A stretch of 64,000 nt of DNA from Rhizobium sp. WYJ-E13 (GTDB taxonomy: Bacteria > Pseudomonadota > Alphaproteobacteria > Rhizobiales > Rhizobiaceae), in assembly GCF_018987265.1 (NCBI RefSeq), contig NZ_CP076853.1:248001-312000 (forward strand), given 5' to 3'. Of this stretch, positions 26,752 to 42,754 are shown one piece after another. Under the pieces are notes generated by a model, which was given only the letters and a program-made list of their open reading frames with translations, was not told where the DNA came from and did no database searches. Within the stretch, counting starts at the first letter, position 1; each line of letters opens with the position of its first letter. A program made the translations under genes and the position numbers.

Positions 26752-27152
26752 AACCTAACTCCGTGAGGAAATGTTCCGGCATGAAATGGTGATTGACGGG
26801 AGCGCAATCAGGCCGCCCGCAGAATGCAGGTTGCCCGACGATACTATCCCGGCTTCTGCCACACTGGCATTCGAAGCTTGCTTGAAACCGGTGCAGCCGA
26901 ATGCCCGCTCTCCGGGAAAGCTGCGGCTTCGAAGACGGATTCAAGCAACGTTAACCATGCAATTGAAGCGACCTGGCCGGGAGCCCCGCTTTTAAGAAGT
27001 TGGCAAGTATTGGCTGCGAGATTGCGCTGGACATGACGGGTTTGGGCCAAGAAACAAAGGCACCGAGTGGCATGAAGCTGGTCCGTCATCGCCGGTATTT
27101 ATAGTCCGGTATGTCCTCCTTTTTTGTATCTAGTTTTCTAGGGGACACACTT
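26752..27152. promoter_or_regulatory. Divergent glycosyltransferase / flaA control region and flaA leader
   Basis: No gene is seen in these 401 bp. The region contains interleaved inverted repeats at 26870-26948. It also has elements shared with the flaB and flaC leaders (GTTAACCAT near 26950; GGCATGAAGCTG near 27069; CCGGTATGTCC near 27106) and the flaA Shine-Dalgarno hairpin. The flaA promoter must lie upstream of the shared leader, but I cannot place its -35/-10 with confidence. Confidence 0.55.
27112..27147 (+). promoter_or_regulatory. flaA mRNA hairpin sequestering the ribosome-binding site
   Basis: TGTCCTC (27112-27118) can pair over 7 bp, with one G-U, with GGGGACA (27141-27147), which contains the Shine-Dalgarno GGGG 8 bases before the flaA ATG. 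The loop is 22 bases. The same arrangement occurs at flaB and flaC. Confidence 0.6.
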
Positions 27153-28061
27153 ATGACGAGCATTAACACGAACTCTTCCGCCCAGGCCGCTCTCCAGACG
27201 CTGCGCAACGTCAACCAGGGCCTCAACACCACGCAGAACCACGTTTCCACGGGTTACCGCGTCGGCAAGGCGTCCGACAACGCTGCCTACTGGTCGATCG
27301 CGACGACCATGCGTTCGGACAACAAGGCTCTTTCGGCCGTTTCCGACGCTCTCGGCCTCGGCGCTGCCAAGGTTGACACCGGTTACACCGCCATGGACAG
27401 CGCCATCGACGTCGTCGGCGAAATCAAGGCCAAGCTCGTTGCCGCGACTGAAAACGGCGTCGACAAGGCGAAGGTCCAGGAAGAAATCAAACAGCTGCAG
27501 GACCAGCTGGTAAGCGTCGCTCAGTCGGCTTCCTTCTCCGGTGAAAACTGGGTTGCCGGTGCTAACGGCACCACGAAGAGCGTTGTTTCTTCCTTCGTTC
27601 GCGACGGTTCGAACGGCGTTTCCGTCAAGATGACCGACTACGTCCTGAACAACACCTCGGTCGGCAACGTTCTGTTCGGCATGAGCGGCGGCCAGATCGA
27701 AACCTCCACGGGTATCCTTGGTACGTCCTACGGCGCGACCGGTTCGGTCTACGGCATGGACATCACCAACTTTACCCAGGGTCAGCTCGCAACGGCTCTG
27801 ACGACCGTTGAAAACGCCCTGAAGGCGATGACCTCTGCCGGTGCAAAGCTCGGCTCGATCTCGACCCGCATCACGATGCAGGACGATTTCGTTTCCGCTC
27901 TGTCCGACTCGCTCGACTCCGGTATCGGCCGCCTCGTCGACGCCAACATGGAAGAAGAGTCCTCCAGGCTCTCTGCTCTGCAGACGCAGCAGCAGCTGGC
28001 GATCCAGTCGCTCTCGATCGCCAACTCCTCTTCGCAGAACATCCTGTCGCTCTTCCGCTAA
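27153..28061 (+). CDS. flaA: Flagellin FlaA
   Basis: Main filament subunit. ATG 27153, after AGGGGACAC, gives 302 residues starting MTSINTNSSAQAALQTLR; an in-frame ATG at 27111 lies in the leader hairpin and is rejected. The conserved D0/D1 regions are present (HVSTGYRVGKASDNAAYWSI, and the C-terminal SRLSALQTQQQLAIQSLS ending NILSLFR). The short central region is typical of rhizobial flagellins. It is a near-identical paralogue of flaB over long stretches. A terminator follows, so it is probably monocistronic. Confidence 0.97.
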   Translation: MTSINTNSSAQAALQTLRNVNQGLNTTQNHVSTGYRVGKASDNAAYWSIATTMRSDNKALSAVSDALGLGAAKVDTGYTAMDSAIDVVGEIKAKLVAATENGVDKAKVQEEIKQLQDQLVSVAQSASFSGENWVAGANGTTKSVVSSFVRDGSNGVSVKMTDYVLNNTSVGNVLFGMSGGQIETSTGILGTSYGATGSVYGMDITNFTQGQLATALTTVENALKAMTSAGAKLGSISTRITMQDDFVSALSDSLDSGIGRLVDANMEEESSRLSALQTQQQLAIQSLSIANSSSQNILSLFR

Positions 28062-28090
28062 CAGCGGCTCAGCCACATCGCGAAAAACGT

Positions 28091-28124
28091 CGAGGCCGGG
28101 TAACTCCCGGCCTCGAATGTTTTA
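28091..28124 (+). terminator. Terminator after flaA
   Basis: CGAGGCCGGG (28091-28100) pairs perfectly with CCCGGCCTCG (28106-28115) over a TAACT loop and is followed by AATGTTTTAA. Confidence 0.85.
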
Positions 28125-28191
28125 ACATAGGGTTAATGGAAATGCTTCTAAGTATCAGATATTTTTACGAAATTTCCCTTTAGAATTTAGT

Positions 28192-28341
28192 TTTCCTTAA
28201 CCATCTTGCTGTTTTCTAGGCCCATCGAAACGGCGAGTTAACCCTAACGAGAATGGTTAACAGGCATGATGCTGATCGCTGTGGGCCGGCCCAAATCCGG
28301 AATGTCCCTTCTTAACATCTGCCAAAAGGGGCAAGCAAACT
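28192..28341 (+). promoter_or_regulatory. flaB promoter-leader block with RBS hairpin
   Basis: The block shares ordered elements with the region before flaC: TTAACCAT, GGCGAGTTAACC, GGTTAACAGGCATGA, GCTGATCGC, CCGGAATGTCCCTT and AAGGGGCAA. TGTCCCTT (28303-28310) can pair over 8 bp, one G-U, with AAGGGGCA (28326-28333), which is the Shine-Dalgarno of flaB. The upstream TTAAC-containing part is the likely promoter or activator-binding zone. Confidence 0.6.
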
Positions 28342-29253
28342 ATGACGAGCATCAACACCAATAACGCTGCAATGGCAGCACTCCAGACGCTGCGTGGCAT
28401 CAACCAGGGCCTCAACAAGACCCAGGATCATGTGTCCTCCGGTTTCCGCATCGGCAAGGCTGCCGACAACGCTGCCTACTGGTCGATCGCAACGACCATG
28501 CGTTCGGACAACAAGGCTCTTTCGGCCGTTTCCGACGCTCTCGGCCTCGGCGCTGCCAAGGTTGACACTGCCTACACCGCCATGGACAGCGCCATCGACG
28601 TCGTCGGCGAAATCAAGGCCAAGCTCGTTGCCGCGACTGAAAACGGCGTCGACAAGGCGAAGGTCCAGGAAGAAATCGATCAGCTGCAGGACCAGCTGGT
28701 CAGCATCGCTCAGTCGGCTGCCTTTTCCGGTGAAAACTGGGTTGCTGGTGTCAACGGCACCACGAAGAGCGTTGTTTCTTCCTTCGTTCGCGACGGTTCG
28801 AACGGCGTTTCCGTCAAGATGACCGACTACGTCCTAAACAACACCTCGGTCGGCAACGTTATGTTCGGCATGAGTGGTGGCCAGGTCGAAACCTCCACGG
28901 GTATCCTTGGTACGTCCTACGGCGCGACCGGTTCGGTCTACGGCATGGACATCACCAACTTTACCCAGGGTCAGCTCGCAACGGCTCTGACGACCGTTGA
29001 AAACGCCCTGAAGGCGATGACCTCTGCCGGTGCAAAGCTTGGCTCGATCACCACCCGCATCCAGATGCAGGACGACTTCGTTTCCGCTTTGAGCGATTCG
29101 ATCGACTCCGGTATCGGCCGCCTCGTCGACGCCAACATGGAAGAAGAGTCCTCCAAGCTCTCTGCCCTGCAGACGCAGCAGCAGCTCGCGATCCAGTCGC
29201 TCTCGATCGCCAACTCCTCTTCGCAGAACATCCTGTCGCTCTTCCGCGGCTGA
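28342..29253 (+). CDS. flaB: Flagellin FlaB
   Basis: The 303 residues begin MTSINTNNAAMAALQTLRG and end NILSLFRG. D0/D1 regions match FlaA. Between about codons 45 and 120, and again from about 150 to 240, the DNA is almost identical to flaA, including synonymous positions. It is flanked by its own conserved leader and a strong terminator, so it is independently transcribed. Role: filament subunit, relative share unknown. Confidence 0.97.
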   Translation: MTSINTNNAAMAALQTLRGINQGLNKTQDHVSSGFRIGKAADNAAYWSIATTMRSDNKALSAVSDALGLGAAKVDTAYTAMDSAIDVVGEIKAKLVAATENGVDKAKVQEEIDQLQDQLVSIAQSAAFSGENWVAGVNGTTKSVVSSFVRDGSNGVSVKMTDYVLNNTSVGNVMFGMSGGQVETSTGILGTSYGATGSVYGMDITNFTQGQLATALTTVENALKAMTSAGAKLGSITTRIQMQDDFVSALSDSIDSGIGRLVDANMEEESSKLSALQTQQQLAIQSLSIANSSSQNILSLFRG

Positions 29254-29304
29254 TAGGATCGCCAAACATAACCCGTCGGGTAACCGGCGGGCCCATACAA
29301 ATCG

Positions 29305-29334
29305 AGCCGCGCTCCGATGGAGCGCGGCTTTTTT
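29305..29334 (+). terminator. Terminator after flaB
   Basis: GCCGCGCTCC (29306-29315), GAT loop, GGAGCGCGGC (29319-29328), then TTTTTT (29329-29334). A weaker hairpin (CCCGTCGG / CCGGCGGG) sits just upstream, near 29270-29291. Confidence 0.92.
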
Positions 29335-29339
29335 AATTT

Positions 29340-29505
29340 ACGTTAACGATTGATTAACCATATTGCTGTCATCTGCGTCTCAACGAGACGGCGAGTTAAC
29401 CAAATTTAAGAATGGGTTAACAGGCATGAAAGCTGATCGCCGTTCCCGGGCGCTATTCCGGAATGTCCCTTTTATTAACGCCTGCCAGCAAGGGGCAATC
29501 ATTTC
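29340..29505 (+). promoter_or_regulatory. flaC promoter-leader block with RBS hairpin
   Basis: Counterpart of the flaB block: TTAACCATATTGCTGT, GGCGAGTTAACC, GGTTAACAGGCATGA, GCTGATCGC, CCGGAATGTCCCTT. TGTCCCTT (29464-29471) pairs over 8 bp, one G-U, with AAGGGGCA (29490-29497), which holds the ribosome-binding site 8 bases before ATG 29506. Confidence 0.6.
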
Positions 29506-30414
29506 ATGACAAGCATTTTGACGAACGTCGCGGCTATGGCCGCCCTCCAGACCCTCCGCGGTATCAGCAACAATCTTCAGGATACTCAAGGTCGCGTATC
29601 TTCCGGCTATCGCGTTGAAAAGGCGGCAGATAACGCAGCCTATTGGTCGATCGCAACGACCATGCGTTCGGACAACAAGGCCCTCTCGGCCGTCTCCGAC
29701 GCCCTCGGCCTCGGTGCTGCAAAGGTCGACACGGCTTATACGGCCATGGATAACGCCATCGATGTCGTCAGCGAAATCAAGTCCAAGATCGTCGCCGCAA
29801 CTGAAAAGGGTGTCGACAAGACCAAGGTCCAGGAAGAAATCAGCCAGCTCCAGGCTCAGCTCATGAGCATCTCGCAGTCGGCTTCCTTCTCCGGTGAGAA
29901 CTGGGTCGCAGGTAACTCGACCAAGAGCGTCGTTTCCACCTTCGTCCGCGACGGCAACGGCAATGTCTCGGTCAAGACGACCGACTACGTCCTGAACGCG
30001 GCTTCCAACGGTAACGTCCTGTTCGGCATGACCACGACCGGCACCATCGATTCGAGCACCGGCATCATCGGCAGTTCCAACGGTACGATCGGCTCGATCT
30101 ACACCATGAACATCACCTCCTTTGGTCAGACGGAAATCGCTATGGCACTGACGGCAATCGAAGCGGGCCTGGAGGCGATGACGAAGGCAGCCTCTCAGCT
30201 TGGCTCCATCTCCAACCGCATCGAGCTGCAGGAGAACTTCGTGGCGGCTCTCGGCGACTCGATCGACTCGGGTGTCGGCCGTCTCGTCGACGCCGACATG
30301 GAAGAGGAATCGAGCAGGCTCACGGCACTACAGACGCAGCAGCAGCTGGCGATCCAGTCGCTCTCGATTGCAAACTCCAGCGCTCAGAACGTCCTCACGC
30401 TCTTCCGCAGCTAA
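29506..30414 (+). CDS. flaC: Flagellin FlaC
   Basis: The third flagellin, 302 residues, starts MTSILTNVAAMAALQTLRG and ends NVLTLFRS. D0/D1 regions are well conserved (AYWSIATTMRSDNKALSAVS, TALQTQQQLAIQSLSIANS). The central segment differs from FlaA/FlaB (TTTGTIDSSTGIIGSSNGT), and synonymous sites have diverged, so it escaped the homogenisation seen between flaA and flaB. The letter follows the usual order in Rhizobium; some S. meliloti-based schemes would call it flaD. Confidence 0.95.
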   Translation: MTSILTNVAAMAALQTLRGISNNLQDTQGRVSSGYRVEKAADNAAYWSIATTMRSDNKALSAVSDALGLGAAKVDTAYTAMDNAIDVVSEIKSKIVAATEKGVDKTKVQEEISQLQAQLMSISQSASFSGENWVAGNSTKSVVSTFVRDGNGNVSVKTTDYVLNAASNGNVLFGMTTTGTIDSSTGIIGSSNGTIGSIYTMNITSFGQTEIAMALTAIEAGLEAMTKAASQLGSISNRIELQENFVAALGDSIDSGVGRLVDADMEEESSRLTALQTQQQLAIQSLSIANSSAQNVLTLFRS

Positions 30415-30467
30415 GCCGGCTGTTGAAGCTGGACCAAACCTTGTGCCGCCAATTTGCGGCAGCCTGG

Positions 30468-30498
30468 AAACCGCGTCGTTTCGGCGCGGTTTTCCTTT
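30468..30498 (+). terminator. Terminator after flaC
   Basis: AAACCGCG (30468-30475) pairs with CGCGGTTT (30485-30492) across TCGTTTCGG, followed by a T-rich tail. An additional small stem GCCGC/GCGGC lies at 30445-30460. Confidence 0.82.
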
Positions 30499-30698
30499 TA
30501 TTTCAATCATTTGCAAGGCCACCGGTGGCGTTGTCTTAATCCCTGTTTCCGCTCTTGCGAAACTGGTTGATATCAGGTTAACGTTACCGCGAGTTGATTT
30601 GTTTTGCGACGCACCGGTGTGGGGGACCCGCCGGAGGCATGAAGCCAGTTCAGTCGCTGCCGGTAAAAACCGGCCTGCCCCTTCATCTTTCCGAGACC

Positions 30699-31658
30699 AT
30701 GTCGATGACCGTCAAGATTACCAACGCGGCCGCGGTGAGTGCGCTGGCAGTGCTGCGCAGCATCACTAAAGAATCAACCGACGTACAGCAGCAGATTTCG
30801 ACGGCGAAGCGGGTCGCGACTGCGGCCGACGATGCGACCTATTGGTCGATCGCGAGCGTCATGCGTGCCGACAGCACCAATCTCGGCACCATCGGCGATG
30901 CTCTTGGCCTCGGCGCCGCAAAGGTCGATTCGACCTATACGGCGATGAATTCCGCCATCGATCTCCTCGGCGATCTCAGAGCCAAGCTGGTCGCGGCGCG
31001 TGAGCCCGGCGCCGACAAGGACAAGATCAATGCGGAAATCACGGAGTACAAGAACCAGCTGCAGACGATGGTCGAAGGAACGGCATTCGCCGGCGAAAAC
31101 TGGCTGTTGAACGGCGAGCCCGCGGCACCCCCGCAGTGGAAGATCATCGGCAGCTTCGTGCGCGCCCCGACAGGCGAGTATCAGGCGCAGACCATCGACT
31201 TTCCGTCGTCCCAGACCATTCTGATAGACAGGAACAATGCCAATGGCGGCCTGTTCACCAAGGAGATCAACGGCAATGCCGATGGCACGCCCGTCCGCAA
31301 TTATTACCTGCTGAACGTAAACTCCGCGACGCCGGCGACCGGCACGGAAATCTCCATCAGCAAGTCGACCACCGACTCGCAGCTTACGGATATGCTGACG
31401 GCAACGGACGCCATACTCAAGCAGCTTACGAATTCGGCAGCAGGGATTGGTATCATGAAGGCCCGTATCGACGATCAGATCGACTATACCGCAGACCTGT
31501 CCGACGCTGTCGACAAGAGCGTCGGTGCCCTCGTCGACACTGATATGGACGAGGCCTCGACCCGCCAGAAGGCTATCGAAACGCAGAAGCAGATGGCCGT
31601 TGAAGCGATCTCCATCCTCAATACATCCGCCAGTAAAATTCTCATCCTGCTCGAATAA
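30699..31658 (+). CDS. flaD: Divergent fourth flagellin
   Basis: From ATG 30699 the product has 319 residues. D0/D1 are recognisable but drifted: DDATYWSIASVMRADSTNLG, IGDALGLGAAKVDSTYTAMN and the C-terminal STRQKAIETQKQMAVEAIS. The last residues are ILILLE instead of ILSLFR. The central domain differs (EPAAPPQWKIIGSFVRAPTG). The start is uncertain: ATG 30705 aligns with the other flagellins, and an upstream frame runs to 30639. A GCCGGT-AAAA-ACCGGC hairpin (30659-30674) lies just before the chosen start. It lacks the leader switch of flaA, flaB and flaC. Probably a minor or specialised subunit. Confidence 0.88.
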   Translation: MSMTVKITNAAAVSALAVLRSITKESTDVQQQISTAKRVATAADDATYWSIASVMRADSTNLGTIGDALGLGAAKVDSTYTAMNSAIDLLGDLRAKLVAAREPGADKDKINAEITEYKNQLQTMVEGTAFAGENWLLNGEPAAPPQWKIIGSFVRAPTGEYQAQTIDFPSSQTILIDRNNANGGLFTKEINGNADGTPVRNYYLLNVNSATPATGTEISISKSTTDSQLTDMLTATDAILKQLTNSAAGIGIMKARIDDQIDYTADLSDAVDKSVGALVDTDMDEASTRQKAIETQKQMAVEAISILNTSASKILILLE

Positions 31659-41960: not shown

Positions 41961-42308
41961 ATGTATCAGTTCTCGTATGCCGAGGTCATGCAAGACTCGG
42001 TTGCCGACGCGAAAGAGCGGGAATGGCAGGTTCTCGAACGTTCGATCGAACTGCTTTCGGTGGCGCGCGACAAGGAGAAGTATACCCGGGAGGCTATTGA
42101 AGCTCTCTTCTATACACGCAGAGTGTGGATCAGCTTCGTTGAGGATTTGAAACATCCCGACAACCAGTTGGAAGTCGAGCTCAGAGCGAACCTCATCTCG
42201 ATTGCGATCTGGATATTGAAGGAATGCGACAGAATTAGAAAACGTCAGTCGAATAACTACCAGGGCATCATCGACGTTACCACCATCATCAGGGATGGAC
42301 TTAAATGA
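41961..42308 (+). CDS. flaF: Flagellin synthesis regulator FlaF
   Basis: The 115 residues are all helical ([40 protein letters not shown]) and match the FlaF family of alphaproteobacteria. FlaF favours flagellin synthesis or secretion and acts together with FlbT; the mechanism in rhizobia is not settled. It overlaps flbT by 4 bp, so the two antagonistic regulators are co-translated. Confidence 0.93.
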
Positions 42309-42754
42309 AAAGTACACTTCGCATTTCTCTGAAAGCCGGGGAAAGAATCTTCATCAACGGCGCTGTCCTGCGTGTCGACCGTAAGGTCGCACTGGAATTC
42401 CTGAATGATGTGACGTTCCTTCTCGAAAACCACGTGCTGCAGCCGGAAGGCGCGACTACGCCGCTTCGCCAGCTCTACTTCATTGCCCAGATGATCCTCA
42501 TCAATCCCGAGGGCAAGGAACATTCGACGGCGATGTTCCGCAAGTCGATCACGATGCTGCTCACGTGCTTCAAGAACGAGGAAATCCTCGCCGAACTGAA
42601 GCGTATCGACGCACTCGTTTCGACCGGTCGCGCCTTTGACGCGCTGAAGGCGATCCGCGGTCTCTACGCGATCGAAGACAGCATTCTCAACAATCACGAG
42701 CTGCCCCCGACCATGGTCGAGCAGATTCGCAGGGAGATCGCACCATGGCGGTAG
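42305..42754 (+). CDS. flbT: Flagellin mRNA regulator FlbT
   Basis: The 149 residues match FlbT ([40 protein letters not shown]). In Caulobacter FlbT binds the 5' untranslated region of flagellin mRNA and limits its translation and stability; in Brucella it acts positively. This window offers obvious targets, namely the leader hairpins before flaA, flaB and flaC. The stop overlaps flgD by 10 bp. Confidence 0.93.

Follow-up and report, generated by a model that had tools for sequence, protein, structure and literature searches.

The locus examined here raises the question of how flagellin synthesis may be controlled at the level of the mRNA in the Rhizobiaceae, and which protein may exert that control. 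Four flagellin genes, flaA, flaB, flaC, and the divergent flaD, are found in tandem within a stretch of 64,000 nucleotides from Rhizobium sp. WYJ-E13 (RefSeq assembly GCF_018987265.1, contig NZ_CP076853.1, positions 248,001 to 312,000), which is denoted below as the window. In the original prediction, a hairpin over the Shine-Dalgarno site of flaA, flaB, and flaC was proposed to be one translational element that responds to FlbT. Comparison with related leaders indicates that these hairpins make up only the 3′ portion of a longer structured leader with five helices, P1 through P5. The leader constitutes a new structured family that is probably tied to the known regulator FlbT.

Architecture of the Flagellin Leader

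Helices P1, P2, and P3 meet in a three-way junction, in which P3 carries an AUGAN loop. P4, a CCGG hairpin, follows, and most copies end with P5, the Shine-Dalgarno hairpin. The core, read 5′ to 3′, consists of an nGC-AUGAN-GCn hairpin (P3), the CCGG hairpin (P4), and TGTCCC...GGGACA (P5). The six arms of the P5 hairpins were rechecked in the sequence and are present, letter for letter, at the positions originally predicted. The 3′ arm of each is the Shine-Dalgarno sequence, at the right spacing from the ATG codons at 27153, 28342, and 29506, respectively. The features assigned to the leaders are as follows.

flaA ATG 27153, flaB ATG 28342, flaC ATG 29506, flaD start 30699 or 30705, +: flagellin genes in tandem
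27033–27040, +: flaA P1 5′ arm, ATGACGGG, pairs with 27082–27089
27041–27067, +: flaA P2 hairpin, 27041–27048 with 27059–27067 and one bulge (minimum-energy fold and family P2 test)
27069–27079, +: flaA P3, GGC-AUGAA-GCU (comparison and fold)
27082–27089, +: flaA P1 3′ arm, TCCGTCAT, pairs with 27033–27040
27092–27109, +: flaA P4, CCGG...CCGG (comparison)
27112–27147, +: flaA P5 as originally predicted, TGTCCTC (27112–27118) with GGGGACA (27141–27147)
28230–28236 and 28276–28282, +: flaB P1 arms, ACGGCGA and TCGCTGT (comparison and fold)
28237–28261, +: flaB P2, GTTAACC...GGTTAAC (comparison and fold)
28263–28273, +: flaB P3, GGCAUGAUGCU (comparison and fold)
28286–28300, +: flaB P4 (comparison and fold)
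28303–28333, +: flaB P5, TGTCCCTT (28303–28310) with AAGGGGCA (28326–28333)
29387–29394 and 29437–29444, +: flaC P1 arms (fold)
29395–29421, +: flaC P2, GTTAACC...GGTTAAC (fold)
29423–29434, +: flaC P3, GGC-AUGAAA-GCU, with a loop one base longer (fold)
29446–29461, +: flaC P4 (fold)
29464–29497, +: flaC P5, TGTCCCTT (29464–29471) with AAGGGGCA (29490–29497)
30606–30674, +: flaD leader, P1 through P4 and no P5 (minimum-energy fold and model matches); P1 30606–30610 with 30653–30657, P3 30636–30646, P4 (CCGG) 30660–30673

When the 5′ end was set at P1, unconstrained minimum-energy folding returned exactly P1 through P5 for flaB and flaC; P1, P2, P3, and P5 for flaA; and P1 through P4 for flaD. 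The flaB and flaC leaders fold otherwise when the 5′ end is placed elsewhere (90 nt). The statement that the fourth flagellin lacks the element thus holds for P5 only, since flaD keeps P1 through P4. The flaD leader is matched by R1, a three-stem covariance model of P3, P4, and P5 that was trained on the family and knows no P1 (E 0.0055, 27.7 bits), and by R2, the full model (E 0.0018, 23.9 bits).

Comparative Evidence for the Helices

Family leaders were collected from 80 named loci (titled Rhizobium or Rhizobiales bacterium), from the 6.9-Mb genome of the window itself, and from genomes of its GTDB family (60 regions). A script located 405 flagellin starts, 391 of them with enough upstream sequence, and these gave 312 distinct leaders. 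Of these, 277 passed the motif parser, and in 267 of them the AUGA loop is followed by a hairpin. Filtering to less than 85% similarity left 128, and 109 of these have a CCGG-type core. The 19 of 128 leaders lacking that core and 35 unparsed leaders were excluded from the helix tests. The 109 family leaders, found through their proteins, were combined with 43 leaders found with R1, mostly outside the family, to give a set of 152 for which P1 pairing was not a selection criterion.

In the R1 matches, the P3–P4 linker was seen to pair with an upstream stretch, enclosing a further hairpin. In the set of 152, the P1 arms of a given leader pair better with one another than with permuted arms (16.56 vs 13.62, z 14.6). 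For the 109 family leaders and the 43 leaders mostly outside the family, the permutation z-values are 11.7 and 7.1 for P1, 10.8 and 3.4 for P2, and 3.9 and 4.2 for P5, respectively, and all of these values, including the 14.6, are upper bounds because the tests ignore relatedness. A P1 helix score of at least 13 at a plausible distance is found in 130 of the 152 leaders, and P2 has at least 4 pairs in 122 of those 130.

An alignment of 57 family leaders was used to follow single base pairs. The exchange in P3 at columns 2 and 12 is GC (39 leaders), GU (9), AU (5), and UA (1), with 3 unpaired, and P4 is nearly invariant. The same stems were obtained from this alignment with RNAalifold, for P5 only as the four inner pairs. 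A further alignment, A2, contains 57 full-length leaders that were selected for P1 and P5 pairing, a selection that inflates its covariation figures: 86.6% of the cells pair vs 78.5% after shuffling, and double changes occupy 186 cells vs 70.8. The covariation score of A2, 0.338, was reached in 0 of 500 shuffles, which gave 0.203, and slid structures gave at most 0.160. The pair types of P1 in A2 are UA (29) with CG (19) at one position and AU (24) with GC (22) at another. Compensatory changes that keep the helices across relatives, the mark by which a structured cis-regulatory RNA is recognized, are found in these sequence comparisons. In several leaders outside the family, L212, L228, and L238 among them, the P4 loop often has seven bases (UGAAAGC, UGCAAGC, UUCAAGU) and resembles a T-loop.

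The conserved blocks could instead be DNA sites such as promoter or operator palindromes, since GGCATGATGCC and GTTAACC...GGTTAAC form palindromes at the DNA level and TTAACCAT lies upstream. However, the P1 arms are separated by approximately 40–50 nt in the window and vary in concert, even between paralogs of one genome, and the P2 arms differ widely among leaders and yet pair. An explanation in terms of DNA is considered very improbable. Still more remote is the proposal that flagellin translation is governed by a small upstream frame starting at the AUG of the P3 loop. Few leaders depart from AUGA, which begins a short frame in flaA and flaC, but ATCA stands in its place in 5 of the 257 leaders parsed. 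Neither the frame nor its end is constant, and in flaD the frame is in phase with the gene. This candidate was dropped on account of the lost starts and the varying frames.

The Shine-Dalgarno Hairpin

Each P5 hairpin, taken alone, is mildly unusual. When positions −60 to −23, on the 5′ side, were put through 5000 mononucleotide shuffles, an equal helix score was obtained 549 times for flaA, 151 times for flaB, and 355 times for flaC, and the score of flaA is equalled by 3 of the 41 long open reading frames (ORFs) other than flaB and flaC. The hairpins nevertheless exceed chance because the 5′ arm is conserved: TGTCC is present in 75 of the 109 nonredundant family leaders having the core.

The difference between the arms of flaA and those of flaB and flaC was originally said to resemble covariation. 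Within the family the resemblance is weak, and it is not seen among the 75 TGTCC leaders, whose arms pair no better with their own partners than with swapped ones (z −0.2). Over all 109 family leaders, the energies of the native P5 duplexes are stronger than those of swapped duplexes (z −3.8), and the duplex is weak in 30 of the 109. The variation in the 57 aligned family leaders is mostly wobble, with UA in 33 and UG in 19 at one pair. The resemblance does hold between families, where double changes occur in distant leaders: TGTCTTTC with GAAAGAC in L248, L250, and L338, and TGTTCC with GGAACA in L237. Covariance analysis of the family leaders, the check suggested for the prediction, thus found P5 to be conserved mainly in sequence and P1 and P2 to covary.

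Distribution of the Leader and Its Carrier Genes

Among 249 genomes of the order, R1 matched 60 at E ≤ 0.01. With R2, 67 of the same genomes were matched at E ≤ 0.01 and 60 at E ≤ 1e-3, the latter spread over 14 families; some of the 249 genomes contributed training rows to R2. In the top R2 loci, the match ends no more than 3 nt from a flagellin start in 30 of 30. When 289 genomes of the class were searched with R2, the strong matches were solely those of the window itself, and none was obtained outside the order; Caulobacter was not identified among these genomes. A weak match (E ≤ 0.05) was obtained in 26 other class-level genomes, and the four inspected (L330–L333, E 4.2e-5 to 0.003) do not precede flagellins and were rejected. 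The weak R1 matches in three genomes (G074, G189, and G284) vanish with R2 and were likewise rejected; the two loci inspected, L259 and L249, do not precede flagellins.

The leader is not solely a flagellin element, since it is also found before chemoreceptor genes. In the genome of the window, a leader at 245657–245741 of the same contig (L240), 2.3 kb before the window and outside the training set, is matched by R1 (E 0.0022) and R2 (E 2.6e-7). This leader has no P5 and precedes a protoglobin chemoreceptor gene (PF11563 and PF00015), after which come cheA, cheW, and cheR, identified by eye at the start of the window. Two more genomes of the genus have the leader before the same kind of gene. 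Matches before HAMP or protoglobin chemoreceptors were also obtained at L243 (E 7.5e-17), L244 (3.5e-11, gene identified by eye), and L325 (7.5e-5), the first two being in the training set. Other carriers are a PilZ gene (L319, 1.5e-5), a PAS gene (L320, 5.7e-4), and a PAS-GGDEF gene (L328, 0.0025). The model matches at L255, L321, L322, L324, and L326 are not followed by any clear motility gene, and these five may be due to chance.

Co-distribution with One FlbT Subfamily

The original prediction placed flbT and flaF in the window, and both were confirmed by Pfam matches. As in the Caulobacter type of system, FlbT and FlaF are encoded in the same genome as the leader.

41961–42308, +: flaF (PF07309, E 7.2e-34)
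42305–42754, +: flbT, subfamily A, candidate reader of the leader (PF07378, E 9.2e-42; NCBIfam NF001995; co-distribution with the leader)

A PF07378 protein is present in 175 of the 249 order genomes. With the FlbT of the window as the query, 62 genomes were matched at E ≤ 6.6e-22 and the next best at 7.4e-13, a clean gap that defines subfamily A (FlbT-A). Two FlbT families are listed in NCBIfam; the window protein passes the cutoff of NF001995 and fails that of NF009432.

The leader (E ≤ 1e-3) and FlbT-A occur together in 59 genomes, FlbT-A alone in 3, the leader alone in 1, and neither in 186. The three genomes with FlbT-A only are G159, which has a weak leader match (0.0036), G179, and G304, and the single genome with the leader only is G172, a draft of 86% completeness in which no FlbT was found. 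In the 113 genomes (by subtraction) that have only other FlbT types, the leader is absent at E ≤ 1e-3. Thirteen genomes contain FlbT-A and another type; in 12 of them the distance between the leader and the A type is 9–21 kb, and in G277 the leader is on another contig. Within five families (f11, f35, f41, f42, and f44), some genomes have the leader and FlbT-A and others have neither. The presence of the leader tracks one FlbT subfamily, and the correlation is strong. A tree of the subfamilies was not meaningful, as tblastn missed 14 of the 16 type-B loci at E < 1 and returned wrong fragments for the other two. When a CsrA-like fold for FlbT was considered, no PDB sequence was matched, and a poor single-sequence model (pLDDT 65) gave no fold match better than E 0.38.

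The folded leader may be real and its reader a factor other than FlbT, such as FlaF, a flagellin, a small RNA with its chaperone, a small molecule, or temperature, so that the correlation would reflect flagellar systems that move together. FlbT-A marks a type of system rather than one protein, and passages of PMC7591256 describe a flagellin paralog as the partner of FlbT in Caulobacter. This reading is unlikely, at roughly one chance in five: FlbT is the factor for which an action on the 5′ untranslated region (UTR) of flagellin mRNA is reported in this class, in the excerpts consulted. Control by FlbT, proposed in the original prediction, is here suggested by the co-distribution and by literature on other species.

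Comparison with Known RNAs and FlbT Systems

Structured leaders that hide a Shine-Dalgarno sequence are known, among them riboswitches, ribosomal protein leaders, and CsrA targets. The flagellin leader resembles these in having an upstream folded domain and a helix on the ribosome binding site, and differs in that no Rfam 15 family is matched at its gathering score anywhere in the window. The flg-Rhizobiales RNA, RF01736 (Weinberg 2010, PMC2864571), is likewise a cis-regulatory RNA before flagellar genes in the same order of bacteria, and has three hairpins (PMC3765529). It was not detected in the window at the gathering score of 55, in 26900–30800 up to E 5, or, with E allowed to reach 10, in 20 relative loci. 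Its own loci (L182–L199) precede flgF, with NCBIfam NF009331 or TIGR02490 as the best or second-best match in 3 of 3 ORFs tested and the others identified by eye. The window element precedes flagellins, and RF01736 also has another sequence, with GGGAG loops. Membership in RF01736 was therefore rejected on the grounds of no model match, a different downstream gene, and a different sequence. Sub-threshold matches of RF01736 extend to several families of the order.

Control of flagellin mRNA by FlbT in Caulobacter crescentus was reportedly described by Anderson and Gober in 2000 and by Ardissone in 2020. The present system is similar in its target, a flagellin 5′ leader, in having flbT and flaF encoded nearby, and in translation as the likely level of control. 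It differs in its defined five-helix fold, in its occurrence before chemoreceptor genes, and in that, of the two FlbT subfamilies in the order, just one goes with the leader. Brucella belongs to the same GTDB family as the window. In the portions of the literature consulted, the flagellin 5′ UTRs of Caulobacter are described as a target of FlbT (PMC3930126), which is a repressor there with a flagellin partner (PMC3930126, PMC4347634, PMC9812332, PMC7591256) and whose binding promotes mRNA decay (PMC4347634). FlbT is described in part of the same sources as an activator in Brucella (PMC4347634, PMC9812332), and flbT and flaF are among the genes scored in a motility screen of Agrobacterium fabrum (PMC9812332). 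The mode of action of FlbT on flagellin mRNA is called "unresolved" in a passage of the review PMC4347634. No earlier description of this leader was found in the open-licence papers searched, which did not include the original FlbT papers (2000, 2011, 2020).

Organization of the Locus

Among the 80 named flagellin loci, the best match to the window is that of Rhizobium sp. BK316, with 99% identity. Mechanical gene calling puts the flaA start at ATG 27111, beside P5, and homology moves it to 27153; for flaD, the alternatives are ATG 30639, in the P3 loop, or TTG 30594, and homology points to 30699 or 30705. Terminator-like hairpins lie 3′ of flaA (28090–28116), flaB (29304–29330), and flaC (30466–30494), and because of these each gene may have a transcript of its own. 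Terminator-like sites in the region are no commoner than chance (8 vs 5.0 expected, standard deviation 2.1), and no sigma-70 consensus promoter was found there, vs 1.6 by chance. A CtrA-like site is found 33 nt before P1 in two of the leaders.

28197–28204, +: TTAACCAT, CtrA-like site before flaB
29354–29361, +: TTAACCAT, CtrA-like site before flaC

TTAACC is presumably a CtrA half site. In the 110 nt before P1 of 118 leaders it occurs 58 times, 17 of these at 30–33 nt. In those leaders the spacing is consistent with a promoter whose start point lies close to P1, with P1 near +1, and the leader probably begins near the 5′ end of the transcript. In Sinorhizobium meliloti, flaA, flaC, and flaD are listed among the genes with CtrA motifs in a passage of a start-site paper (PMC3616915).

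Five more flagellin-like genes are present in the genome, at 1788770, 1792610, 1463336, 2461886, and 3940396 of the same contig. R1 matched only that at 3940396 (19.7 bits, E 0.43), and the rest gave no match at E ≤ 5.

Proposed Function of the Leader

The helices, their place before flagellin starts, the spread of the leader, and its co-occurrence with FlbT subfamily A emerge from sequence comparison. On this basis, the explanation that we favor, with moderate confidence, is a structured cis-acting flagellin leader of the order that is putatively read by FlbT and acts on access to the Shine-Dalgarno sequence. P1 through P3, together with P4, would serve as the domain that is recognized, and P5 would exert the effect on translation. 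FlbT, together with FlaF or a flagellin partner, would recognize the junction and the P4 region, and recognition would change access to the Shine-Dalgarno sequence. Translation of the flagellins and of some chemoreceptors would thereby be timed to the proper stage in the building of the flagellum. In this clade, activation through the opening of P5 would be more likely than repression, given that FlbT is reported as an activator in Brucella, of the same family, and that flbT was scored in the A. fabrum screen. Where P5 is absent, in flaD, the far flagellin L002, and the che genes, control may be of another kind, for example through stability or a different contact at the ribosome site.

The claim of one FlbT-responsive translational element for three flagellins is plausible and better supported than before. 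A conserved RNA structure does cover three Shine-Dalgarno sites, and the element tracks one FlbT subfamily over the 249 genomes. The claim was too narrow in that the hairpin is one of five helices and is absent in several paralogs, that flaD has the other four, and that the element also precedes chemoreceptor genes.

Several observations weigh against the favored explanation. The folding energies of the four leaders are ordinary relative to shuffles (z −0.34, −0.26, −1.31, and −0.23), and the argument therefore rests on comparison and not on stability. The minimum-energy fold of flaA replaces P4 by pairing 27092–27095 with 27027–27030. The P1 score is above the 95th percentile of foreign linkers in just 36 of the 152 leaders, because the linkers share a consensus. 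Few leaders among the 118 have TTAACC at 30–33 nt, where a weaker bump is also seen for the reverse motif GGTTAA (19 occurrences, 5 of them at 30–33 nt). Certain flagellins of the window's genome have no recognizable leader. The co-distribution cannot single out FlbT as the reader because FlbT-A travels with the whole flagellar system, and NCBIfam names the window FlbT a repressor, contrary to the guessed activation. Finally, P5 is absent before flaD, L002, and the che genes, and covering of the Shine-Dalgarno sequence therefore cannot be the whole function of the element.

The missing P5 helices also speak for the proposal that the leader mainly sets the half-life of the mRNA, as a 5′ structure against RNase, with no switch. 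That the structure may begin near +1, given TTAACC 30–33 nt upstream, is consistent with this proposal, as is the decay promoted by FlbT binding in Caulobacter according to part of PMC4347634. However, the P3 loop, P4, and the 5′ arm of P5 are kept in sequence and not just in pairing, which suggests recognition, and P5 sits on the Shine-Dalgarno sequence. A role mainly in half-life is regarded as quite unlikely, more so than a reader other than FlbT.

Significance

The broader form of the favored explanation, that of an uncatalogued RNA family read by a dedicated FlbT subfamily, with a regulon that times flagellins and chemoreceptors, and perhaps PilZ and PAS proteins, and that is gained or lost with its partner within families, is given an even chance. 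With a defined covarying RNA, a set of listed carrier genes, and a corresponding FlbT subfamily, the action of FlbT on flagellin mRNA becomes directly testable. For annotators, the RNA family would be useful as a marker of flagellin starts across an order of soil and symbiotic bacteria. If the favored explanation is true, FlbT-type control would extend from flagellins to chemoreceptor genes, and the leader may enable the cell to time flagellum construction.

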